A model generated the notes under the pieces. The model was not told the DNA's origin and ran no database searches. It was given only the letters and a program-made list of their open reading frames with translations. This document shows positions 24,141-52,614 of a stretch of 52,960 nt of DNA, piece by piece. The stretch's first letter is position 1. Every line of letters starts with the position of its first letter. The DNA comes from Betaproteobacteria bacterium (GTDB taxonomy: Bacteria > Pseudomonadota > Gammaproteobacteria > Burkholderiales > Burkholderiaceae_C), in contig JAGWOZ010000005.1 in the NCBI GenBank assembly GCA_028870715.1, forward strand, positions 1-52,960, given 5' to 3'. The position numbers and the translations under genes are program-made.

Positions 24141-24185
24141 TGGCTCCCCGACTTGGGCTCGAACTAGGACGCTGCAGATTAACAG
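24141..24185 (-). repeat. Attachment site: 3' end of tRNA-Asn (copy 1)
   Basis: 45 bp matching, with six differences, the 45-bp copy at 30,444-30,488, which on the minus strand reads the anticodon arm (CTGTTAATC), variable, T arm and CCA end of tRNA-Asn(GTT). The 5' half of the tRNA is absent. A native-like terminator follows. It is the scar of integration into tRNA-Asn; mutations show it is an old, unused end. Confidence 0.8.
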
Positions 24186-29689: not shown

Positions 29690-30485
29690 TCTGGCTGCAC
29701 ACCGGCCTCGCCAACATCGCCCAAGCCCTGGCAGCGCCAGGCGTAAGAAGTACGAGGACAAGGCCCAGTTCCCTGCATAAATCAAGACCTCAAGAAACCG
29801 CTTTGGGCGGCTGCCGACAATTGCGCTCCTCGATGAACGCCGCCGAGTGCAAACCCCTCGTGCTCGGGCCAAGGCTTGCAGCACCCCGGCGGCGCCGATG
29901 AATAAGCTCGATGCCTTGGCGCTCACCGCCTGGCTAACAAGCTGCTCGCGCAAGAGCGCTTGGAGGTCATGCTGCAGGAGATGAAGCGACACCTCAACCA
30001 GGCCCAAGCGCAACAAAAAGATGACTTGCGCGTGCTGCAAAATGAATTGGATGAACTGGAAACAGCCACTAATCGCCTCTATGAAGCCGTCGAGAGGGGG
30101 GATGCCGCCGATGGATGGCATGCTGAGCGCCCGCGTGCAAAGGCTCAAGGCTCGGCGCGATGCGGCGATGCTGGAAATCGCGGTGGCGCGGCGGACCGAG
30201 GGCATCCCCTTGACGGCCCTCAGTTCGAGCCAGTTGGATGCCTTTGCTACTGCAATGCGGTGGCGTGCGCTGTATCGCGCCAGCGGCTCCTCGAAGCGCT
30301 CCCTGCGGCAGTTCGTCAGTGGAATCACCTTTGACGGCCAGAGCGTGCGCATGCGAGTGCAGGGCAAGAGGGCTGCGCTGCTTGCGGCTGCGATGGGCGA
30401 AAAAATGGGTACCGGCAATGCGGTGCCCATTTCTGGCATGAATTGGCTCCCCGACCTGGGCTCGAACCAGGGACCTGCGGATTAA
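29690..30485 (+). pseudogene. Large serine recombinase, C-terminal remnant
   Basis: The tail of a resolvase/recombinase-family integrase. LANKLLAQERLEVMLQEMKRHL-like sequence and LQNELDELETATNRLYEAVERG form the coiled coil. A frameshift in a G6 run (30,096-30,101) then moves to LSARVQRLKARRDAAMLEIA, GIPLTALSSSQLDAFATAMRWR, and the end GMNWLPDLGSNQGPAD. The last residues are encoded by the tRNA-Asn attachment sequence itself. The catalytic domain is missing and the zinc-ribbon part upstream is scrambled. The intact enzyme probably integrated the element into tRNA-Asn. Confidence 0.78.
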
Positions 30486-34633: not shown

Positions 34634-35443
34634 ATGACTCACCACACCCATCCCACCACCGCTGCCCCTCGGGCCGTTAGCCGCAACGCTTATGGCGGAC
34701 TTGAAATAGCCGCCTGCCTCGAGCAGGATGAGCGGCTTGCCGTAGGCGCACTGCTCGACCGCGCCGTCGAAGATGACCTGCTCCCCGAGCCCTACATCGA
34801 AAGCTCGAAGCGGGAAATCGAAAGCCTGAACCACCACGTTTACGACGCCTGGTCCGTCGATGGCACCGTCAGCGCCGTGGTTGTGCTCGTGCTCTGGTAC
34901 TGGAAGCACCTGCGCAAGGAGCGGACGCGTATGAGCAAAACTTACTACCTCGTGCGTCAAACCGGCGAGGCAGAGGTCACCGTAACCGAACTCGATGGCC
35001 GGACCTGCGCGAAGCGAGCAAAGAACGCGAATGCTCTCGGCCAGCTCACCCGCCACTATCTGGGACTCGAGCATGTCAAGTGCGCAACCCCGTACGTTGA
35101 GACTCGCACTGGCTACAAAGTCGTCGCCAAGACACCGGACGGCAGCCTGGTCAGCGCCTTCGACGGGTCTGCTTACAAGCCCGAGGTCTGGCGGTCAGAG
35201 GCGGCACAGGACGACCACGGCGGGGGCTTTTACTACTACGAGTCGCAAGACCTAGCCATCGAGACCACACGGCAGGGGCGCACCTTCGCACGTTGTGTGT
35301 CTGAAGGCAAGACGCTCGTCCTTTGCGCCGTCGAAGTCGCGGGCCGAGTCGTGGGGTACGACACCGGCAAGCGTGCTGCCTCGCGGCTTCGCGTCCTGCA
35401 CGAGATTGGCCCAGTCGCAATCGACGATGAAGAGGACGACTGA
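34634..35443 (+). CDS. Hypothetical island protein
   Basis: A 269-residue frame on the plus strand, divergent from Q. The C-terminal two thirds (MSKTYYLVRQTGEAEVTVTEL, then GYKVVAKTPDGSLVSAFDGS and AASRLRVLHEIGPVAI, ending EDD) look like a genuine soluble protein. The ATG at 34,931 has a good Shine-Dalgarno (AAGGAG), so a 170-residue product starting there is possible. The N-terminal part (residues 1-99) has a hydrophobic stretch VSAVVVLVLWYW and may be a separate or fused segment. No family recognised. The start is the main doubt. Confidence 0.65.
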   Translation: MTHHTHPTTAAPRAVSRNAYGGLEIAACLEQDERLAVGALLDRAVEDDLLPEPYIESSKREIESLNHHVYDAWSVDGTVSAVVVLVLWYWKHLRKERTRMSKTYYLVRQTGEAEVTVTELDGRTCAKRAKNANALGQLTRHYLGLEHVKCATPYVETRTGYKVVAKTPDGSLVSAFDGSAYKPEVWRSEAAQDDHGGGFYYYESQDLAIETTRQGRTFARCVSEGKTLVLCAVEVAGRVVGYDTGKRAASRLRVLHEIGPVAIDDEEDD

Positions 35444-35530
35444 CCGGATTGCTCGCCGCAGCCAGGCCACGGGGCGCGCTTCGAAGGCTCACCACGGCGC
35501 CCTAAAATTCGTTCCATGACCTGACACAAT

Positions 35531-35607
35531 GGGGGCGCAACGCCTCCAGACCTCAACTTGAAGCGCACGACACAGGGTCCGTGCGCCTACAAAAAGTTGA
35601 GGTCAAC
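35531..35607 (+). promoter_or_regulatory. Structured leader, copy 1
   Basis: Two adjacent stem-loops ending 3 nt before an ATG. Hairpin A is GGGGGCG-CAA-CGCCTCC (one G-U pair). Hairpin B has an outer stem GACCTCAACTT / AAGTTGAGGTC (11 bp, perfect) and an inner stem GCGCACG / CGTGCGC. Related copies occur at 38,571 and 42,511, each before a small ORF starting ATGCA. It may be a cis-acting RNA leader or part of a mobile cassette boundary. Confidence 0.65.
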
Positions 35608-35814
35608 ATGCAAAGTCAGTACGAAGCCGCGCGCAGACTCCTCGCCGCCGGTGCCTTCATCGAACAAGTCTCCGACGCGCCGCTCGCCTACCGCATCCGA
35701 CTCGGTAGTGATTCGGCCCCGTTGCCGGCCGGGCTCTTCCAGCAACTGCTTGCCCACAAGCTCATACGCCAAAGCTGCAGGGTGAGTGGGAGGATGCGGT
35801 TCGTGGGGGCGTAG
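35608..35814 (+). CDS. Small hypothetical protein behind structured leader
   Basis: A 68-residue protein starting at the ATG that follows the leader's AGGTCAAC. The sequence AAGAFIEQVSDAPLAYRIRLGSDSAPLPAGLFQQLLAHKLIRQSC is shared in outline with the decayed ORF at 42,592 (FIEQISYRPL, DSAPIAGGLAQQLL, IKQSCR), so this is a recurring small gene linked to the leader. The GAGG of the leader may serve as its Shine-Dalgarno, placing translation under control of the stem. Function unknown. Confidence 0.7.
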   Translation: MQSQYEAARRLLAAGAFIEQVSDAPLAYRIRLGSDSAPLPAGLFQQLLAHKLIRQSCRVSGRMRFVGA

Positions 35815-36187
35815 GAAAGCCTCGTCGAAACCTGTGGCCATTCGCGTGAATCGCCACAGACGTCAGATTGCGTCGCACTTCTCCTGCAGGGGGTTTCATA
35901 AGGGGAGATACCCCTCGCAGAGTATGAAATCGGCGCCCTCAAGGACATGCTCAATGTCGCCGATTAAGTGTGGGGGCGCAACTCATGTAGACACGTCTCC
36001 TCCAAGCCAGGCTTGGGTCCTTCGGACAATAAGACCTCGCAACTTCGTGCTGCTCGCGGCCCCCAAACTGGTTTGAATACCTTCAACATGAGGCGCAAAG
36101 CTGGCTATGCTGGCATGAATGTGTTTCTTGTCGAACACAGCACGACCTGCGGCGGTCTGCCGCGTGAGCGTAGAGAGGAGGCGAGCA
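35815..36187. other. Gap upstream of the AAA_13 gene
   Basis: No gene supported. A TGGGGGCGCAACTC stretch at about 35,972 resembles the first bases of the structured leader but lacks its stems. The promoter of the ATPase gene should lie here. Confidence 0.4.
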
Positions 36188-38443
36188 ATGCTCGAAAGAA
36201 TCACCGCTATTCGTGGACACAAGTGCTTTCGGGATTTCCGGTGGGAACAGTTGCCGCCGTTTGGACGGTACAACTTGATTTATGGCTGGAATGGTTCCGG
36301 GAAAACAACTCTATCGAAGTTGTTAGGCCACCTAGAGACCCGCCAGCCCATCACGACTGGCCAGGTAGCTTTCAGCGTATCGGGAACGGCCTTTCACGGT
36401 GCCACTCTGGGCCAACAGAGTCTCCCAACTGTGCGCGTGTTCAATAGGGACTATGTGGACGGGAGCGTCCTTCAGCGCAATCAGAACCTAGAGCACATCT
36501 TCTTTCTGGGGAAAAGGGCAGTCGAGAAAGAGAACGAGCGGGAACGGGTTGAACAAGAGCTGAAGAAGATTGGGGATGATTGGACGCTGGCTAACGGCAA
36601 GCAAGCATCCGCGCGGCAGGACTACGACAGGTTTCTCCGAGAGAGCGCATCCGCAATTAAGCAACGTCTTCGAGCGCCCGGCCAAAACAGATTCGCGAAC
36701 TATGACAAGAACGACTTTGAAACTCAGTGCATCAGGGCGGAGAAGGGAGAAATCCAGCCCTTAGAGCTTGATGACAACACACGCGACAGCCTTCAGAAGG
36801 CGCGTCAAGCAGATGCTCGCCCCAGCATTCAGCGCTCCGCCGCGCCCCTTGCCATTCAGGGAGTGCTCATCACACGAATCCGCTCCCTGCTAAAGTCAAC
36901 GCCGACAATTGCCCCCATCGAAGCCCTAAGGAGCGACAGCGCGCTTTCCGGTTGGCTGGGCAGCGGCCTTGGAATACACAGGGATAGGAACAGTGAGATA
37001 TGCCTGTTCTGCGAGCAGCATTTGCCCAAGGGTCGTCTAGAAAGACTAGAGGCGCACTTCAGCGACTCATACAGACAGTTCGCAAATGCGGTCGGCGTTT
37101 TGCGGTCTGAAGTCAGCGGCCTTCAATCTCAAGTGGCTGCGCTGCCCTTGGTGGAACCTGGGTTGGTCTATCCGCAGTTGGTGGCTCAAATACAGGAAGC
37201 CAACAGCGATATGAAAGATAGCAGGGACCGACTCCTCGCTATCTTGGCGGACATAGCGGATGCCATAAGAAAAAAGCTCGAACATGCCCTCCTCCAGGTC
37301 GAGGTGCCCGAGAGCTTGTCCAACTTGGCGGCGTCGGCCAGCGAATGGCAGACCAAGGCCCATGCAGTGCAGGCGGTCGTGGAACAACACAATCGAATCA
37401 CCCAAAACTTCAACGCCGAGGTCGCTTCCGCAGGCGCCCAGCTTGAGCTTGATGCCATCGCCAACGCGTTTGCAGAGTTCAAGAGCCGCAAGCGCGCCAT
37501 GGCTGAACAGGATGAGGAACTCAAGGCGCTGGGTTTGCAACGTGACGCGCTCGGGAAACGTGTCGACGAGCTAACGCGCGACCTCACGGAGACCATTGAG
37601 CCGGCCAATCAGCTGAATGATGACCTGGCTGCATATCTCGGGCACACCGAATTGACAATCACGCACCATGGAACTGGATACGCCATCACCCGCTCCGGTC
37701 AACCGGCCAATGACCTGAGCGAGGGGGAGCGAACTGGCATCGCACTGCTCTACTTTTTGAAGAGCTTGGAAGACCACCGGCGGCCGCTCAAAAACACAAT
37801 TGTTGTTGTGGACGACCCAGTCTCGAGTTTGGACGCCGGCGCGCTGTACGCGGCGTTTGGCTACATGCGGGCCCGCACGGAGGGGGCTAAGCAGCTGTTC
37901 ATCCTGACGCATGATTTCTCGCTTTTCCACCTCGTCAAAGGATGGTTCAAGCATATGAAGGCAACGACTGGGTTCTACCAAATACGCGCGCCATTCGCCG
38001 AGGGGACAAAGTGTTCGAAGTTGTTCGAGTTGGACCCGCTGCTGAAGGACTACGACACCGAGTACCAGTATCTGTTCAGCTTGGTCCTCAAAGCATCGAC
38101 CTCGCAAGACAATGGACTGGAGCAGTTTTACGGCATGCCAAACGTCGCCCGGAGAACATTCGAACACTTCTTGGCGTTTCGTTTCCCTGGCGGGAAGGCA
38201 TCAGACCATCTCCAGGAGCGCGTGAAGTCACTCAATCTTGAGCCTGGCACAGCTGCAGTCATCAATCGATTCCTGAATATCAACTCGCATGGGGACGGTG
38301 TTGCGCCACCTGAACACGACCTCCACCTACTTGCAGAGGCGCCGCGCGTCATGAAGGCCGTCATCGAGGTAATGCGCAAGGAAGACCCTAACCATGTCGA
38401 GCGCATGGAGGCCCTTGTGGCTTCCAATTGCGACCAACCGTAG
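36188..38443 (+). CDS. AAA_13-family ATPase with zinc hook, RloC/PrrC-like
   Basis: A 751-residue SMC/Rad50-like ATPase. The start at 36,188 has AGGAGG 7 nt upstream. Walker A is GWNGSGKT (residues 33-40), a CxxC zinc hook (ICLFCEQ, 272-275) sits in the coiled coil, and the ABC signature LSEGERTGIALLYF lies near 511, with Walker B TIVVVDDPVSSLD near 538. The C-terminal domain has RRTFEHF (R-x3-E, about 655) and INSHGDG (His about 702), reminiscent of the Arg-Glu-His anticodon-nuclease triad of PrrC/RloC. This family is mostly anti-phage. Nuclease activity is inferred; the spacing of the His differs from PrrC. Confidence 0.85.
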   Translation: MLERITAIRGHKCFRDFRWEQLPPFGRYNLIYGWNGSGKTTLSKLLGHLETRQPITTGQVAFSVSGTAFHGATLGQQSLPTVRVFNRDYVDGSVLQRNQNLEHIFFLGKRAVEKENERERVEQELKKIGDDWTLANGKQASARQDYDRFLRESASAIKQRLRAPGQNRFANYDKNDFETQCIRAEKGEIQPLELDDNTRDSLQKARQADARPSIQRSAAPLAIQGVLITRIRSLLKSTPTIAPIEALRSDSALSGWLGSGLGIHRDRNSEICLFCEQHLPKGRLERLEAHFSDSYRQFANAVGVLRSEVSGLQSQVAALPLVEPGLVYPQLVAQIQEANSDMKDSRDRLLAILADIADAIRKKLEHALLQVEVPESLSNLAASASEWQTKAHAVQAVVEQHNRITQNFNAEVASAGAQLELDAIANAFAEFKSRKRAMAEQDEELKALGLQRDALGKRVDELTRDLTETIEPANQLNDDLAAYLGHTELTITHHGTGYAITRSGQPANDLSEGERTGIALLYFLKSLEDHRRPLKNTIVVVDDPVSSLDAGALYAAFGYMRARTEGAKQLFILTHDFSLFHLVKGWFKHMKATTGFYQIRAPFAEGTKCSKLFELDPLLKDYDTEYQYLFSLVLKASTSQDNGLEQFYGMPNVARRTFEHFLAFRFPGGKASDHLQERVKSLNLEPGTAAVINRFLNINSHGDGVAPPEHDLHLLAEAPRVMKAVIEVMRKEDPNHVERMEALVASNCDQP

Positions 38444-38570
38444 CAGCCGCGTTGAAGACGCGGACAACAGGAGGCTCAGCCCCGTTGCTCGATATTGACG
38501 CTCAAGCGCCGCGCGCATTTCCGTGTATGAATGCGTCCTAGAGTTTCAAAAGTGAACTGACTCCAAAACC

Positions 38571-38647
38571 GCGGGCGCAACGCCCGCAGACCTCAACTTG
38601 GAACGTACGACATGGAGCTCGTGCGTTCGCGAAAAGCTGAGGTCAAC
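38571..38647 (+). promoter_or_regulatory. Structured leader, copy 2
   Basis: Hairpin A is GCGGGCG-CAA-CGCCCGC (7 bp, perfect). Hairpin B has GACCTCAACTT / AAGCTGAGGTC (one mismatch) and an inner stem AACGTACGA / TCGTGCGTT (9 bp with one G-U). Compared with copy 1 the stem sequences change on both sides while pairing is kept. Upstream, TGAACTGAC is shared with copy 3. Confidence 0.65.
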
Positions 38648-38899
38648 ATGCACATCAAGAAGCCGGCTTCCACCCCGGTTCACAATTGGGTCGGCACGGC
38701 GGGTCAAAATTGCATCGACGCTCACACTGCAACCTTGTTTGGTGGTCCACGCACCCAGGTAATCGTCAGCTCGCCTGACGCCACCCGACTGCGCAGTTGG
38801 CTGGGCCATTGGAGCAGCCATCGCAATCACCCGCGGCCCCGAACCCGAAGGTCTGCAATCAAGAACACCACCGCGACCTCCCGGTGCCCGGCGCGATAA
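38648..38899 (+). CDS. Small hypothetical protein behind leader copy 2
   Basis: An 83-residue frame from the ATG after leader copy 2. It begins MHIKKPASTPVHNWVGTAG and shows no similarity to the small protein of copy 1, so the leader is combined with different ORFs. The last 24 codons overlap the 3' end of the convergent 1,208-residue gene, so the ORF may be truncated or run on into it. Reality of the protein is uncertain. Confidence 0.4.
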   Translation: MHIKKPASTPVHNWVGTAGQNCIDAHTATLFGGPRTQVIVSSPDATRLRSWLGHWSSHRNHPRPRTRRSAIKNTTATSRCPAR

Positions 38900-41800
38900 G
38901 TCGCGACATACCCGCTTGTCTCGCAATCGGGTCCAAGGGATGCGCAACTGATGTATGTGAGGCCGGACGGAACCTCGTGTTCGAGCATTTTCCTGGCGTA
39001 GTCGAGGAGAGGTTCAAGGGCCTTCGCGTAGGAGTAGGTGACGAGGAAATAGATTTCACAGTGGCCGTATGAGAAAAGCTTGTCGAAATGCGCCTTCGTT
39101 TTAGTCCGTTCGAGACCCGAGCAGACGAGCGCCTCATAGATGCATATCTCCTGACCAAAAGCCTCAATGACAGCATCCCGTCTCCCTGGGTTTCCGTTAT
39201 CAGTTGCTCCGCCAGGCGATTGGTCAGCCACGTTCCACTTAGCCACGGCAAGTGAAGCCCCCAACACTTTTCGCACGGCGGTGTTGAGGTCATCTTCGAA
39301 CCTTGCCTCATCCTCCGGATTTTTCTTGTCGCGTAGCATTGCCGACATTTGCTGGAGCGCGGCAACAGCACGCGAAATCTGCCGCACGAGATAGCCTTGT
39401 AACCCACCACCGGGAGGGCCAAGAACGTCGCCGACTTGGGAAACCGGAAGCTCAGTCAACTGCTGCAGTGCGGCCCTGATGGATGAAATAGTGTCAACGG
39501 CAACCGATGCTGAAGCGACGCTGGACGCGGCGACACCAGCTTGCAGGTCCTCCTTGGCCGCGACGAGCCGCTCGTCAGGGCCAAACTCTGTGATGGCCGC
39601 GTCTAGTATCGCCATCGCGTCGCCCCGAGACCCCATTTCAGTCTTTGCAAGCACGGCGACAAGCTCAAGCTCCAGGCTTGGCATCTCACGACGACGCGCA
39701 GCCATGCTTTCCAAGGCTTCATCTGGTCTTTGCAATGCCAGCAACAGCAGTGCACGGTTGGCGAGCAAGCTGCTGCTAGCTAGCTTCTCGTCTGCATCGA
39801 CCGCAGCATTGATTTCACCAAGCAGGCTCTCGCCGGTCACCTTGTCCTCACCAGTTAGCGGATGAAGGGTGGGCCCCAGAAGCTGTTGGATGGCAATCGC
39901 AAAGACGTTCTCCTTGTACGCAGAAGCGGCGCCAGGTCGCGCTGCTAGTCCTTGGAGCACGGTCCGCGCGCCTGCCAAATTGCCGTTCGGGCGTAGCAGT
40001 TGGGACGTAGCCGTGTAGAAGTCCAGTTGGTCCTGCGCTTGCCTCGTCGTCGACACATCCAGGGTCGACGGAACGGTCGCGCCATCGAGGGCAGCCCAGT
40101 TCTTCTCCTTCAGAAGCAGTTGCAGCCCCAGACCAAAAAGCCCAAGTCGGAACTGCGGTGGCGCGCGTTCCAAATCCTGCGCAGTTTCATCCAGGTGCTC
40201 GCGGGCAAGCCCGTATTCGCCGGCGGCCAACAGGCACTCGATGCGGTGCTGCAGCTCGGGCCAGGTCCAAAGCGTTGAAGCCTCTCCTGGCTTCAGCTGC
40301 CGCAACCTCGCTTGGATGCCGGTCTTCGCCGCAGCAGGCAAGTACTGGCAAAGCTCGGCAAGTAGCACCGGGTCATCGGACTGGGCAAGCGCCTGCAACA
40401 TCGCATCCTGGTGAGTGCCATCTAGCCCTCGCCATGCAGCTGCGAGGTCTTGTGCCGGCGAGCCCTCCTCACGTGCGAGAAAGCGGTTTGGGCTGTACCT
40501 GTCCGTGAGCGCTCCGACGCGCCCTTTCTCAGCGTGCTCAATGGCGCTGCGCGAAACGAGCGCTTGGAATGCGTCGGCCAGCTCCGTAGGTACGGCCCCG
40601 TCTGGCCAACCGGCCACGGCGCGTGCGAGCAAGCGCACATGCTCTCTCAAAGTGTGAGCAATGGTGGAGCGCAGGGACAGCTCTTCTTCCTCCGGCGCCT
40701 GTCGCAGCAGCTCTGCGCTATCGAGTGGGATTAGCAGCGCATCTCGCTCGGGCGCGGCTTGTACGAACGCGGTCGCGATGAGTCGCGCGGCCAGTTCGGC
40801 GGACAAGCTGCTTGCATCAGTCCAGTCCAAGTGCAGGTCGCGCGCAAACTTGGTATAGAGAGCGACGATTGCGAAAGCGTTCGTACGCCGCGCGCTCGGA
40901 AGGCATCCCAGTCCGTCAAGCACTCCCGCAAATTGCGCTCGGGGCACGTTGTTCTCATAGGCTGCCTGGTCAACTAGGTGCTGCAGAACCGCAGTCTGAA
41001 CTTCTTCCTTTTCCCCGGCGACCATCCCGAGAATCTGCCGCCCAATGGGCCTCCTGGCATCGGCGGCCGCCCTCCCGCGGCCAGAGTCGTCGCCATAGCA
41101 CCAAGTCACCAACGCCGCGCACTCTTCGAGGTCAAGCGTGTTCTTATTCAGGTGGTATGCGAGGAGTGATAGCGCGTCTTGGACCGCAAATGCCTTGGTC
41201 TGAGCTTCGCGGCTCAAAATGCGGTCGTTGCCTCGCTCCCCTTCCTGGTGCCACTCGATGACCAACCTGGCGGCCAGGCAGGCGATGAGCGGGTGCAACA
41301 GCATGTCCACCAAAAGAGCTGGCACGGCTTTGACCCGGAACAGAATCTGTTGCAACGCCATTGGATGGGCGGCTGCAAACGATAGAACCGTCTCTGCCTC
41401 GGCCGAGACCCGCGGACCGATGCCCGTCGTATCCAGCTCGGAACAAAGCAGGTTCAATGCAAAGCTCACGGTGCTCGGGCTAATTAGCCGTTCCATCATG
41501 AGGTGCTCGACCTCAAGGCTTGCCAGCCAGTCCACTCCAGAAACAAGTGTCCGTGGTGGCGCGGTCCTCGGAATCCTGGAAAACCGCAGTCGGTCCGGTG
41601 GAATAGCGAATGTCTTTTCGAGCACGTCCGCGTAGCTCGCGGCATCGTTATCCCAGTTACCCCACAGTGCCTGGCGTTCCAAGACACGATGGGCGGCCTC
41701 ACGGCAGTACTGCATTTGAGTGGGGCCCCAGCCAATGTCCCACCTGCCAGCGCAGCCGACGGCGTTACACCACGCAGACCATTCGAGAAAGGCTCTGTCG

Positions 41801-42453
41801 ACATCCCGCTCATGAGCCTCTAGTGCCTGCGGCAAGACCCTGGCACCACCTTCGGCTGCTGCTACCTCGGTCCTGTTGCTGCCGTCGCCGGCTCCTACCA
41901 GAGGTTGGGGGCACAACCGCTCCCATAGTCGGCCCGCAACCCACTCGGGGTTTCTGGTAGGAATGTGCTCGTCGAGCCACTCTTCAGGCGCAATCCTGGC
42001 TGCAAGCGCCCGGGTACTGGGTGGCGGTGTATCCTCTTTCGCCACGAGCCGTACCTTGCTGAGCTCCTCCAGAAACGTCTTCGTGCTCGGGCTTGGAAAG
42101 GTGATGTGCGCGGAGGTGCCTATAGGCGCACTCTGCATAATCCAGCGGCCGCCGTCGAAAAACACCCATCCCATGCGGACGAGGTCATCGAACGTCGGAC
42201 CGCCTTCTGCAATGCGTTGCTCCGACTCGTCCCAGGTCTTGGCAATGTCCTCAGCGCTGCCCGGATACTCCAATCGGTAGTGCTTGCAAAGGTCGAGGAG
42301 ACCCAGCTCGTCGACCATGCCATCCGAACCCACGATGAGCCGTGGATGACGCGACCGCGACAACCAGCGCTCGAATAGTTGCCTCAGTTCGTGACGCACC
42401 TTCAGCGGCGCCCCCATGCCTTCGAGCGGCCGCACCTGTTTGTATCCCGACAC
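38827..42453 (-). CDS. Very large hypothetical protein, candidate defence effector/sensor
   Basis: A 1,208-residue cytoplasmic protein. The GTG at 42,453 has a strong Shine-Dalgarno (AAGGAGGGG), better than the upstream in-frame ATG. I recognise no catalytic motif. The N-terminal ~130 residues look like a small folded domain (LIVGSDGMVDELGLLDLCKHYRLEYPG). Most of residues 200-1,020 is Ala/Leu-rich helical sequence of the TPR/alpha-solenoid kind (SSLLANRALLLLALQRPDEALESM). The last ~110 residues form a distinct alpha/beta domain (YEALVCSGLERTKTKAHFDK, FLVTYSYAKALEPLLDYARK). It is convergent with the AAA_13 ATPase and bracketed by leader copies 2 and 3. Large solenoid proteins of this kind are common in defence islands; the function is unknown. 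Confidence 0.85.
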   Translation of the reverse strand: MSGYKQVRPLEGMGAPLKVRHELRQLFERWLSRSRHPRLIVGSDGMVDELGLLDLCKHYRLEYPGSAEDIAKTWDESEQRIAEGGPTFDDLVRMGWVFFDGGRWIMQSAPIGTSAHITFPSPSTKTFLEELSKVRLVAKEDTPPPSTRALAARIAPEEWLDEHIPTRNPEWVAGRLWERLCPQPLVGAGDGSNRTEVAAAEGGARVLPQALEAHERDVDRAFLEWSAWCNAVGCAGRWDIGWGPTQMQYCREAAHRVLERQALWGNWDNDAASYADVLEKTFAIPPDRLRFSRIPRTAPPRTLVSGVDWLASLEVEHLMMERLISPSTVSFALNLLCSELDTTGIGPRVSAEAETVLSFAAAHPMALQQILFRVKAVPALLVDMLLHPLIACLAARLVIEWHQEGERGNDRILSREAQTKAFAVQDALSLLAYHLNKNTLDLEECAALVTWCYGDDSGRGRAAADARRPIGRQILGMVAGEKEEVQTAVLQHLVDQAAYENNVPRAQFAGVLDGLGCLPSARRTNAFAIVALYTKFARDLHLDWTDASSLSAELAARLIATAFVQAAPERDALLIPLDSAELLRQAPEEEELSLRSTIAHTLREHVRLLARAVAGWPDGAVPTELADAFQALVSRSAIEHAEKGRVGALTDRYSPNRFLAREEGSPAQDLAAAWRGLDGTHQDAMLQALAQSDDPVLLAELCQYLPAAAKTGIQARLRQLKPGEASTLWTWPELQHRIECLLAAGEYGLAREHLDETAQDLERAPPQFRLGLFGLGLQLLLKEKNWAALDGATVPSTLDVSTTRQAQDQLDFYTATSQLLRPNGNLAGARTVLQGLAARPGAASAYKENVFAIAIQQLLGPTLHPLTGEDKVTGESLLGEINAAVDADEKLASSSLLANRALLLLALQRPDEALESMAARRREMPSLELELVAVLAKTEMGSRGDAMAILDAAITEFGPDERLVAAKEDLQAGVAASSVASASVAVDTISSIRAALQQLTELPVSQVGDVLGPPGGGLQGYLVRQISRAVAALQQMSAMLRDKKNPEDEARFEDDLNTAVRKVLGASLAVAKWNVADQSPGGATDNGNPGRRDAVIEAFGQEICIYEALVCSGLERTKTKAHFDKLFSYGHCEIYFLVTYSYAKALEPLLDYARKMLEHEVPSGLTYISCASLGPDCETSGYVATYRAGHREVAVVFLIADLRVRGRG

Positions 42454-42510
42454 GAAATCCCCTCCTTGATACCGCTCCCTGCATGCTAAGCGGTACTGAA
42501 CTGACCCCAC

Positions 42511-42591
42511 TCATGCGGGCGCCACGGACGCGGCCCCCAACTTGAAATGCACGATATGGGATTCGTGCGCCTGAACTTGATTGAGGCCAAC
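42511..42591 (+). promoter_or_regulatory. Structured leader, copy 3 (degenerate)
   Basis: Same layout as copies 1 and 2 with weaker pairing: inner stem TGCACGA / TCGTGCG (one G-U) with an 8-nt loop containing ATGG as in copy 2, and GGCC arms at the base of the outer stem. It again ends AAC-ATGCA. TGAACTGAC upstream is shared with copy 2. Confidence 0.5.
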
Positions 42592-42780
42592 ATGCACGGC
42601 AGCACCAATTAGTTCGCCATCGCCGTCCAATTGCTCGCAAAACGCGCCTTCATCGAGCAAATTTCCTATCGTCCGCTCAGCTGCCATCTCTACCATATGC
42701 GCGACTCAGCTCCAATTGCTGGAGGGCTCGCCCAGCAATTGCTGAAAAGCAGGGCCATCAAGCAGAGCTGCCGCGCGTGA
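42592..42780 (+). pseudogene. Decayed paralogue of the small leader-linked protein
   Basis: 63 codons starting at the ATG after leader copy 3, with a stop at codon 7. The remainder reads VQLLAKRAFIEQISYRPL, DSAPIAGGLAQQLLKS and IKQSCRA, matching the protein at 35,608. Loss of reading frame integrity shows it is no longer translated in full. Confidence 0.65.
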
Positions 42781-42963
42781 ACGGGCGGATGAGCGATGCG
42801 ACGGCCTGAGCGCATTTCAGCCTCCCTGCGCATGCGCAGAGAGGTTCCGGACCCATAGGCGGCAGCCTTCCTTCGCCATCTGCGCCCCGAGCAGGGTGCC
42901 GCGTCGCTCCCAGCCGTGCCACGCAAGCGTCGCTCAAAACGCCATGGGTGCGCGCCGAGCCCA

Positions 42964-50337: not shown

Positions 50338-50553
50338 ATGAATCCCGTGCAAAAACTGCTCGACTTGAGCGAGCTGTCAGAAGTTCTGGGCCGCAGCCCA
50401 GAGACACTCAAAAAGGACCTGCGCCGCAACCCAGATGCGGTACCGCCGCGACTGCAACTGCCAGGCACGCGCCTGCTGCGGTGGCGTGCCTCGGATGTCG
50501 ACGCGTGGCTTGCCGCGCATGTGCAAGGTCGAAGGGAGACAAACCATGAGTGA
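50338..50553 (+). CDS. AlpA/excisionase-like HTH protein
   Basis: A 71-residue MerR-like winged-helix protein (HTH_17 type): LLDLSELSEVLGRSPETLKKDLRRNPDAVPPRLQLPGTRLLRWRASDVDAWLA is the full domain, with the final RW..DVDAWL strand typical of excisionase/AlpA proteins. It overlaps the RepA start by 8 bp and leads the operon. It may control excision or replication-gene expression of the element. Confidence 0.88.
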   Translation: MNPVQKLLDLSELSEVLGRSPETLKKDLRRNPDAVPPRLQLPGTRLLRWRASDVDAWLAAHVQGRRETNHE

Positions 50554-51517
50554 GAAAGGCCAAACCACCATAAACTCCAAGGCGTCCCCGTTTGGCAAGC
50601 CCCTAGACATTCACGCACTCCTGACGGCGCCGCCTCCGCCTCTCCATCATGTTCTCCCGGGATTGCTGGCCGGAACGGTTGGCATGCTTGCCGGCCCAGG
50701 GGGTGTCGGCAAAACCATGCTGGAGCTCCAGATTGCCGTTGGTCTGGCCACCGGCACGCCCGTCTGCGGCGGCTTGTTCGAGTGCGCCGACGCGGCTCCA
50801 GTGGTGATGGTTGCCGCCGAGGAGGACGTCAATGTCCTGACCCATCGGCTGCACGCCATCGTGCACGCGCTGTATGCGCAGAGGGCGCGATTCGGGCTGC
50901 AAATCGAGAGCAAGCCGTTCCTTGTCCGCTTGCAGAACAACCTACGCCTGTTTGCGGGAACCACCGCTGGGCTCTTGCTGCTGGACCGCGATGGGCGGAG
51001 CACGGCAACCCTCAAGGCACTCGGCGACGCAGCCGAAAGTGCCCAGTTAGTCATCATCGACCCTCTGCGCCAGTTCCATGGCGGCGACGAAAACGATTCG
51101 GCGTCGATGAATAGGGTCGTCCTGGCCCTGCGCCAGGTTGCCCGCCAATCAGGTGCTGCGGTCGTCTTTGCCCACCACGCGAACAAAGCCGCCACGTTCT
51201 CCGGCCAGGGGGATGTGGCAGGTGCGGCGCGCGGCTCGTCGGCGCTGACGGATGGCGTGCGCTGGCAGCTGAATCTTTCCAAACCGACCAAGGAGCAGGC
51301 TCAGCAGCGTGGCATCGCTGAGGATGCCCGGGGGCGGTACTTGCTGCTTGACATTCCGAAGGCGAACTATTCACCACCTCGTGGCACCGTCACGCTCGAG
51401 CGCCTCCCTGGTGGCGTTCTGGCGGGCTGTAGTCCCCAGGGCCATGGCCGGGGCGCTCACGAGAGGGCTGGCAAATCGGAAGTCCAACAGCTCCAGCTGA
51501 CGGGAGATGAGCAATGA
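50546..51517 (+). CDS. repA: RepA-like hexameric helicase (AAA_25)
   Basis: A 323-residue RecA-fold ATPase like RepA of IncQ plasmids. Walker A is LAGPGGVGKTM near residue 50, Walker B AQLVIIDPLRQF near 170, and AAVVFAHHANK near 211 is the motif following Walker B. The start is the ATG at 50,546 (GGGAGAC upstream), overlapping the AlpA-like stop. It should unwind the origin together with RepC. The stop overlaps repC by 4 bp. Confidence 0.9.
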   Translation: MSEKGQTTINSKASPFGKPLDIHALLTAPPPPLHHVLPGLLAGTVGMLAGPGGVGKTMLELQIAVGLATGTPVCGGLFECADAAPVVMVAAEEDVNVLTHRLHAIVHALYAQRARFGLQIESKPFLVRLQNNLRLFAGTTAGLLLLDRDGRSTATLKALGDAAESAQLVIIDPLRQFHGGDENDSASMNRVVLALRQVARQSGAAVVFAHHANKAATFSGQGDVAGAARGSSALTDGVRWQLNLSKPTKEQAQQRGIAEDARGRYLLLDIPKANYSPPRGTVTLERLPGGVLAGCSPQGHGRGAHERAGKSEVQQLQLTGDEQ

Positions 51518-52614
51518 CTCATACGGCGTCCAAACCACCACGCTTTGTTCGCTGCGACCCGGCCACAGCGACCTGCCCGCTCTTCCGGGCCTTACCGAAA
51601 GTGCATGAACGCCCGCCGCTAGACGTGGCGTATCGAGGTAAAAGCGGTGGACCGTCGCTGCGATTCAGTGCACGCGAGGCGCTGGGCATGCCCGAACAGA
51701 CCGTCTTGCTTGTGTTACTTGAACTCGCGCAGGAGCAGTACCTGCACCGGCCCTCTGAACTGGTGGTCATCACGCCGTGGTCGTTCGGCATTGGGCAGCA
51801 CCTCTGGCGCGCACTGCACGATGGCCAACCGGTGCGTTCGGGGGAGACCCTCTACGTGCGAACTTCCTGGCATGAGCTCTGCGGCCGCTGTGGGAGTCGT
51901 GGTGGGCGGGCGCAGCGGCTGCGGCAAGAACAGCTTCGCCGGCTCTGCGAGGTCACGGTGTGGGAAGATGCAATGGATGCGCTGCATAGCTTCCGTCAGT
52001 CGCGCCTGGTGTCCGTTTGGCACGGCGATGACATCGGGCTTCACCTTGCTGTGAATGTGCGCCTCGCGCGCGCGGTCATGGGAGGGCATTATGTGGCCCT
52101 TTCATTGCGCGAGCGGCTTGCGTTGAGCACTGACACGGCGCAGGCGTTGCACGCCTTCCTTTCCGCAGTGATTCGCCTGGGCAGGCGCTGGCGCTTCGGG
52201 GTGGAGACGCTGATGAAGCGGCTTTGGCGAAAAGGGGACTCGGCCATTCCAGTCGGCACGGTCAGCAGCAGGCGAAAGGCGGTCCGAGATGGCCTGGAGC
52301 AAATCGGAGCCCTGAATGGGTGGGAGGTGACGTGGCCGAAGGTCGACGTGGCGTCGGTTTCGCGAAAGCCAGCCAAAGTTAACGGCCTCGCGAAGGGCGG
52401 GTCCCGTGTCCCCTCTGTGGAACTGACGTCGTCCTTGGACGGTCGCCGACGCGACGCGTCCGGGCCCATCGCAGAAACCTTCGATGTAAGCCGCCTTTTG
52501 GCCGGCGTTGCCGATAGTCCATTACCTGGGACTATCGCCCACGATGACATGGACTTTCGGCAACGTGGAGACGCTGAGGAGGCCAGTGTTTCCGCGGGGT
52601 GCAGCCTGCCATAG
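51514..52614 (+). CDS. repC: RepC-like replication initiator (IncQ type)
   Basis: A 366-residue protein with the outline of IncQ RepC: N-terminal RFVRCDPATATCPLFRALPK, the LHLAVNVRLARAVMGGHYVALSLRERLALSTDTAQALHAFL region and the second winged helix RRKAVRDGLEQIGALNGWEVTW. It is longer than RSF1010 RepC, with an extra ~70-residue acidic tail. The tail-coding DNA contains a perfect 9-bp inverted repeat CGATAGTCC / GGACTATCG (52,512-52,537). It should bind the origin iterons. No plasmid primase gene (repB) follows in the window. Confidence 0.85.
   Translation: MTHTASKPPRFVRCDPATATCPLFRALPKVHERPPLDVAYRGKSGGPSLRFSAREALGMPEQTVLLVLLELAQEQYLHRPSELVVITPWSFGIGQHLWRALHDGQPVRSGETLYVRTSWHELCGRCGSRGGRAQRLRQEQLRRLCEVTVWEDAMDALHSFRQSRLVSVWHGDDIGLHLAVNVRLARAVMGGHYVALSLRERLALSTDTAQALHAFLSAVIRLGRRWRFGVETLMKRLWRKGDSAIPVGTVSSRRKAVRDGLEQIGALNGWEVTWPKVDVASVSRKPAKVNGLAKGGSRVPSVELTSSLDGRRRDASGPIAETFDVSRLLAGVADSPLPGTIAHDDMDFRQRGDAEEASVSAGCSLP

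Follow-up and report, generated by a model that had tools for sequence, protein, structure and literature searches.

The 52,960-nucleotide stretch of Betaproteobacteria DNA analysed here (the window) carries three copies of a putative structured RNA leader, each placed before a start codon that belongs, in the intact case, to a small open reading frame (ORF) of about 68 codons. A first-pass annotation, made from the sequence alone, had located these copies at 35,531, 38,571 and 42,511 and described each as a hairpin (hairpin A) with a CAA loop, a long two-part stem-loop and AAC-ATGCA. Our analysis bears out the positions and the layout (Table 1; the copies are labelled W1, W2 and W3 below). 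The CAA loop is present in copies 1 and 2, whereas in copy 3 hairpin A is part of a degraded fold.

Three leader copies and their downstream sequences

Copies 1 and 2 fold far more stably than shuffled sequences (z of -6.9 and -4.4, with none of 200 shuffles equalling them), while copy 3 folds no better than chance. The GAGG beside the ATG, said to be hidden by the outer stem, does pair in the predicted folds of copies 1 and 2. Of the covariation claimed for the inner stem of these two copies, inspection leaves one compensatory change (G-C to A-U) and a single wobble (C-G to U-G); the firmer evidence comes from leader copies outside the window.

Table 1. Coordinates of the leader copies, small ORFs and neighbouring genes in the window (SD, Shine-Dalgarno; aa, amino acids).
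Feature	Position	Strand	Remarks
-10-like hexamer TAAAAT (consensus TAGAAT)	35503..35508	+	alignment; inter-copy conservation begins here; putative promoter
5' element ATG ACC TGA	35516..35524	+	NTG NNN TGA form, see text
Hairpin A, copy 1	35530..35548	+	predicted fold
Two-part stem-loop, copy 1	35549..35604	+	predicted fold, pair counts
Outer anti-SD/SD stem, copy 1	35549-35559 with 35594-35604	+	inner hairpin from 35563
GAGG SD sequence, copy 1	35599..35602	+	paired, unpaired probability 0.000
Small ORF, copy 1	35608..35814	+	intact family member, 68 codons; dN/dS, AF2 model
AAA_13 ATPase, candidate defence gene (PADLOC PDC-S06)	36188..38443	+	start from own gene call; searched as 36119-38440
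Leader copy 2	38539..38647	+	-10-like TAGAGT to base before ATG; hairpin A 38571-38587
Post-ATG stretch replacing small ORF, copy 2	38648..38778	+	38652-38731 resembles IS21-family element end
1210-aa protein	38827..42459	-	no Pfam, PADLOC or PDB sequence match
Leader copy 3, degraded	42497..42591	+	fold z -0.5
Broken small ORF, copy 3	42592..42783	+	stop at codon 7
RepA-like (AAA_25) and RepC replication genes of surrounding mobile element	50435..52614	+	

The ORFs behind copies 1 and 3 are related, as had been noted. The ORF behind copy 2 does differ in sequence, but a second gene class is ruled out, since the stretch is the remnant of an insertion by an IS21-family element. Its bases 5-84 from the ATG resemble the terminal part of the repeat downstream of istB in such elements, and the sequence recurs in 12 further loci: two (L148 and L156) carry istB some 180 bases off on the inner side, another six have 288-304 bases in common with the stretch downstream of istB in L148 and end at contig ends, and the remaining four share only 57-105 bases. 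The three occurrences of the post-ATG stretch itself are near-identical, with one to two differences per 43 codons. An IS21-family element or remnant lies soon after a leader or broken ORF in three separate places (L047, L052 and 38652-38731 of the window), hinting at a preferred insertion target.

Distribution and subfamilies of the leader

The same assembly has one further strong copy, and the expectation that copies would occur in other genomes was confirmed: of 199 genomes searched, 7 gave matches, counting that of the window itself. Among GTDB species genomes, six loci were found, of which Thiomonas delicata DSM 16361 has two. Search model R1, applied to 28 genomes with 150 candidates scored in each, gave 33 matches, 14 at >=79 bits and 19 at <=28.6 bits; the four low-scoring ones that were read (L099, L100, L101 and L113), considered as leaders before unrelated genes, have neither the layout nor the ORF and were discarded. 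Model R2, built from subfamily 3 leaders only and run on 229 genomes, recovered the six of its training loci that were present together with a new 35.9-bit match (L166), which precedes a frameshifted homologue of the ORF, was outside the training set and was not listed by the protein profile search. Among the genomes searched, the leader is confined to Thiomonas and a few relatives.

The 33 leaders read comprise 19 of subfamily 1 (the kind found in the window), six of subfamily 2, seven of subfamily 3 and the divergent L166; within subfamily 1, the leaders of L085 and L086 are identical to that of L044, and that of L051 to that of L052. These are three subfamilies of one small protein, preceded by leaders of one layout and largely different sequence. 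The outer stems differ among them, with the Shine-Dalgarno (SD) sequence always in the 3' strand (GACCTC..GAGGTC; TTTCCTTTCGTC..GACGAAAGGAA; TCCTGAA..TTCAGGA or TCCTGAC..GTCAGGA), and subfamily 2 likewise combines the common layout with an outer-stem sequence of its own. Leaders of subfamilies 1 (L044) and 3 (L133) have the inner-hairpin stretch TTCGTGCGTCCGCAA in common, despite proteins that are only 26-30% identical.

All-against-all comparison of 15 contexts delimits the conserved unit: unrelated neighbourhoods have in common at most the interval from about -13 to +293 relative to the leader start, and some related pairs share more. This interval holds a -10-like box (TAGAAT), the leader and the ORF to near its end, and upstream of the box there is no sequence common to all copies. 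Because conservation runs from the box to near the ORF end, the unit looks like a promoter, a 5' leader and a small gene.

The first-pass annotation knew of no described motif with such a layout. In agreement, Rfam gave no match at gathering score over the whole window, up to E 1 over 35400-35900, or up to E 0.5 for three subfamily 3 loci, and no earlier description of the leader was found in Rfam with subfamily 1 and 3 sequences or in a limited literature search. Relatives were likewise absent from plasmids (subfamily 1 and 3 protein queries and one DNA query), phage records (subfamily 3 protein query) and viral contigs (subfamily 1 protein and one DNA pattern).

Structure, covariation and pairing of the Shine-Dalgarno sequence

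Ten leaders were folded and gave z values from -6.9 to -0.2, eight of them at -2.7 or below. Changes on both sides that keep pairing, as anticipated for a conserved RNA, were found in two of the three subfamilies. Over 15 distinct subfamily 1 leaders, 96.5% of cells are paired (20-48% in slid controls), and both sides have changed at 4 of 19 pairs, a number that none of 500 shuffles reaches. Subfamily 3 has 98.2% of cells paired (slid controls, 30-39%) and both sides changed at 4 of 24 pairs (11 of 500 shuffles as high), with a covariation score matched by none of 500 shuffles.

The probability that the SD is unpaired was computed for 29 leaders (16, 6 and 7 of subfamilies 1, 2 and 3, respectively). 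It is 0.000 in 12 of the 16 subfamily 1 leaders, with leader 09 partly open at 0.066, and 0.001-0.006 in four of the six subfamily 2 leaders, the other two standing at 0.209 (1 and 4 of 100 shuffles as low). That three subfamilies of largely different sequence have the same predicted architecture argues well for selection on SD sequestration.

The small-gene family

The ORF encodes products of 68-71 aa that are rich in charged residues and, in the comparisons shown, 26-51% identical between subfamilies. The ratio of nonsynonymous to synonymous substitution rates (dN/dS) is 0.13-0.54 in 19 of 20 pairs and undefined in the remaining one; the small gene is therefore under purifying selection. An AlphaFold2 (AF2) model of the protein, with a mean predicted local distance difference test (pLDDT) of 93.6, has two helices and five strands in the order helix, two strands, strand, helix, two strands. 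Neither Pfam, NCBIfam nor PDB sequences returned a match; PHROGs gave two only (E 0.034 and 0.28), and Foldseek none at E <= 0.001, the best being 2.5e-3 among viral models and 3.1e-2 in the PDB.

Profile searches with the ORF agree with a narrow distribution. Counting the window's own genome, the genus yielded matches in 9 of 28 genomes and the family in 7 of 399, of which two are weak and unconvincing; the order gave 2 of 399 and the class 2 of 321, in each case the window's genome plus one other, the one in the class (G891) being weak. Weak protein matches in genus g190 (L069 and L070) do not read as family members and were rejected.

Module junctions at leader-ORF units

The first-pass annotation also raised the idea of a recombination boundary that collects defence genes. 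Several module junctions do coincide with leader-ORF units, either within them or at their ends, and some copies adjoin defence genes; for many others the genes searched include no defence neighbour, and the mosaicism fits ordinary homologous recombination and insertion by IS elements. The unit of the 1210-aa protein follows leaders W2, 13b and 13c in different settings (the window, L042 and L041, being interrupted in L041). The 5' part of leader 13b matches L050 and its 3' half W2, leader 13c has the cargo of W2 behind another leader, and 13a and 13d diverge at the ORF end. No recombinase acting on the motif was identified, no IntI search having been made, and the mosaic pattern fits homologous exchange between repeats, without need of a dedicated recombinase.

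A folded DNA recombination site, attC-like or of a similar single-stranded kind, might instead collect the cargo cassettes, the RNA fold being a by-product of inverted repeats. Arrays of leader-bounded units (in the window, L041 and L042/L043), the recurrence of the 1210-aa unit, the mosaic leaders 13b and 13c and the closeness of some copies to integrase or RepA/RepC genes all speak for such a site. Sites of the attC type have the boxes R'' RYYYAAC and R' GTTRRRY, however, and by inspection the GTT core of R' is absent in part of the copies: copy 2 reads GCTGAGG and the leaders of L045, L046 and L043 read ACGAGG in place of GTTGAGG, so that an integron attC array is rejected. Moreover, the breakpoints vary (mid-leader, near the ATG, ORF end), unlike a fixed crossover, and the SD is kept at a fixed distance from the ATG of an ORF under selection. 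We regard a DNA site of this general type as unlikely, if the best placed of the alternatives.

The 5' end of the leader

Directly after the -10-like box, all 22 subfamily 1 and 2 leaders listed carry a motif NTG NNN TGA, 89-96 bases ahead of the ORF, in which the first codon is ATG in 19 and GTG, TTG and CTG once each. This regularity could denote a minimal ORF of two codons, leaderless and of the start-stop kind, and its translation would then open or close the stem downstream. The motif was not seen in the subfamily 3 leaders read, its bases may be conserved because they pair with the start region, and shared ancestry alone could preserve it; a regulatory role of its translation is rated slightly below the DNA site, and as improbable.

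Pairing of the 5' end was assessed in 21 leaders. In nine, the complementarity of the first 14 bases to the start region or the opening codons exceeds chance (at most 2 of 1000 shuffles); some of these nine are near-identical and hence not independent, and in one of them, 13b, a stretch taken further along the ORF as a control also pairs. The complementarity is weaker in W1, 13c, 13d and 347c (34-70 of 1000 shuffles) and not beyond chance in W2, W3, 21 and five subfamily 2 leaders (124-422 of 1000).

Least probable is a type I toxin-antitoxin mRNA, in which a small toxin with a locked start region would be further silenced by an antisense RNA: a small ORF on mobile elements, the locked start and the 5'-end pairing of part of the copies suit it, but type I toxins are short hydrophobic membrane peptides whereas the product here is a predicted folded domain with many charges, no toxin match was found in family libraries, and a scan of one region, 35400-36250, found no sigma-70 consensus pair on either strand.

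Neighbouring genes and mobile elements

The two large genes between the leader copies had been called defence-type. This holds for the AAA_13 protein to the extent that it matches the candidate family PDC-S06; the 1210-aa protein has no match in Pfam, PADLOC or PDB sequences and is a candidate for an unknown defence or mobile-element gene. The RepA/RepC pair of the window recurs in L042.

Five distinct subfamily 1 neighbourhoods contain known or candidate defence genes, as a raw count that includes one by domain resemblance only. One of the five is that of W1, with the AAA_13 ATPase. SngABC, which we take to be Shango, lies beside the copy of L044, and L085 has the same gene layout by coordinates only. 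Leader 13d adjoins a 1349-aa protein (L041:7123-11172) with helix-turn-helix, Mrr_cat nuclease and STAND NTPase domains, defence-like by these domains, with a weak PADLOC match, and presumably akin to Avs-type proteins. L046 has a Fic protein matching SoFic and PDC-S04, and L051 a Tn7-like transposon that includes IetAS, roughly 5 kb past the leader copy. Among the genes searched, which were not every gene, W3, 13a, 13e, 10b, 347c and the IS21-flanked L047 and L052 have no defence neighbour. In the one subfamily 2 locus tested (L054), the genes ahead of leader and ORF are rpoC, tRNA-Met, a tyrosine integrase gene and an HD gene. The L090 copy stands at a contig end.

Some further observations concern the elements themselves. 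TnsA, TnsB-like, TniB and TniQ genes and the IetA/IetS pair adjoin a leader copy with a broken ORF at L051:9174-17151, and L052, from another assembly, has an IS21 element on the side where L051 has the Tn7-like genes. Over 1.2 kb, the leader-ORF unit of L046 is 98.5% identical to a Thiomonas delicata copy while belonging to a metagenome-assembled genome of another family, which reflects either recent transfer or a binning error. Repeats resembling tRNA 3' ends, recognised by eye and about 6 kb apart, occur in the window (24142-24167 and 30445-30470, minus strand) and in L050 (8813-8835 and 14303-14325), where a TnpB/Cas12f-like gene (L050:12119-13402) lies between them about 3 kb downstream of the leader. 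ARAGORN found no tRNA genes in the window or L050, and the repeats are possible att sites of integrative elements.

Interpretation

Taken together, our findings make it reasonably likely that the motif is a structured, unregistered 5' leader belonging to a family of small genes on mobile elements of Thiomonas, and that it represses translation by sequestering the SD. The first-pass suggestion of a cis-regulatory RNA gains from the further copies, from pairs preserved by compensatory change in two subfamilies, from the predicted pairing of the ribosome-binding site in most subfamily 1 and 2 leaders and from the layout common to all three subfamilies. The predicted structure, its conservation, its position before a conserved ORF and the coding selection on that ORF are computed results.

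Several observations weigh against such a leader. Copy 3 and 347c, with z near zero, fold at chance level. The SD is partly open in copy 3 (0.285; 29 of 100 shuffles as low), not closed in leader 472 (0.363; 63 of 100) and, in 347c, closed (0.012) yet no better than in shuffles (31 of 100); in the seven subfamily 3 leaders it is unpaired with a probability of 0.14-0.24, not below shuffles (11-39 of 100 at or below). The 14 other window genes with an SD-like motif range from 0 to 0.85, two being fully paired as well. As for covariation, further pair types in subfamily 3 are at chance (363 of 500 shuffles), subfamily 2 has none and is too uniform to judge, and many pairs are invariant across leaders. 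Kinship also matters, since related sequences can exceed pair shuffles without structure, and the family occurs in few genomes, so that independent changes are few. The ORF is lost behind leaders W2, 13b, 13c and 21 and broken in W3, 00b, 09 and 14; leader and ORF can therefore part. Finally, the result of the sigma-70 scan also counts against the promoter that this leader presupposes.

From the sequences we infer a promoter, translational repression, its release and any autoregulation, in the following scheme. Transcription would probably start at or near the 5' NTGNNNTGA element, and the RNA would fold into hairpin A, the outer anti-SD/SD stem and the inner hairpin with an unpaired, largely one-sided UCCGCA-like bulge. 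The closed state would block ribosome loading, leaving the ~68-aa protein unmade, and repression is probably achieved in this way; in part of the subfamily 1 copies, the RNA 5' end could also pair with the start region or first codons. A trans-acting factor, perhaps the small protein on its own leader, may shift the balance. The repeated leader-ORF units would, in addition, offer passive homology for the exchange of neighbouring modules.

A bolder and improbable extension holds that leader and small protein form a self-contained translational switch kept by mobile elements beside exchangeable defence modules, in which a signal such as infection or translation stress would open the mRNA, closed by pairing of its 5' end with the start region and of anti-SD with SD, and the protein would act on its own leader or on the neighbouring cargo. 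In any case, the leader and its gene contribute a candidate family of cis-regulatory RNAs and a family of uncharacterised small proteins, jointly testable by a simple reporter, and flag module junctions in Thiomonas mobile elements, including the 1210-aa protein, which lies beside a candidate defence gene and has no known relatives.

Comparison with known systems

With integron attC arrays, the leaders share repeated imperfect palindromes directly before small ORFs that bound modules of varied content; they differ in the R-box core missing from several copies, the variable breakpoints and the conserved spacing of SD and start. The small gene recalls, by description only, the BrxR/CapW regulators, which are small proteins beside defence genes, nucleic-acid binding being a guess here. 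It differs from them in having no Pfam or NCBIfam match and many copies without a defence neighbour among the genes searched, and in that the cargo lies on either strand relative to it and therefore forms no operon with it.

Translational riboswitches and ribosomal-protein leaders are 5' leaders that sequester the SD. The leader described here differs from them in the lack of an Rfam match, the restriction, among the genomes searched, to Thiomonas and a few relatives, and the location of its gene on mobile elements. The combination of SD/anti-SD pairing and compensatory change that marks this class is found in subfamily 1; subfamily 3 has the compensatory changes with SD pairing not below shuffles, subfamily 2 the paired SD without covariation, and the degraded copy 3 lacks the combination. 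What the leader has in common with this class is an outer anti-SD/SD stem, a conserved inner hairpin whose unpaired bases are conserved too, compensatory changes and a place directly before one gene family.

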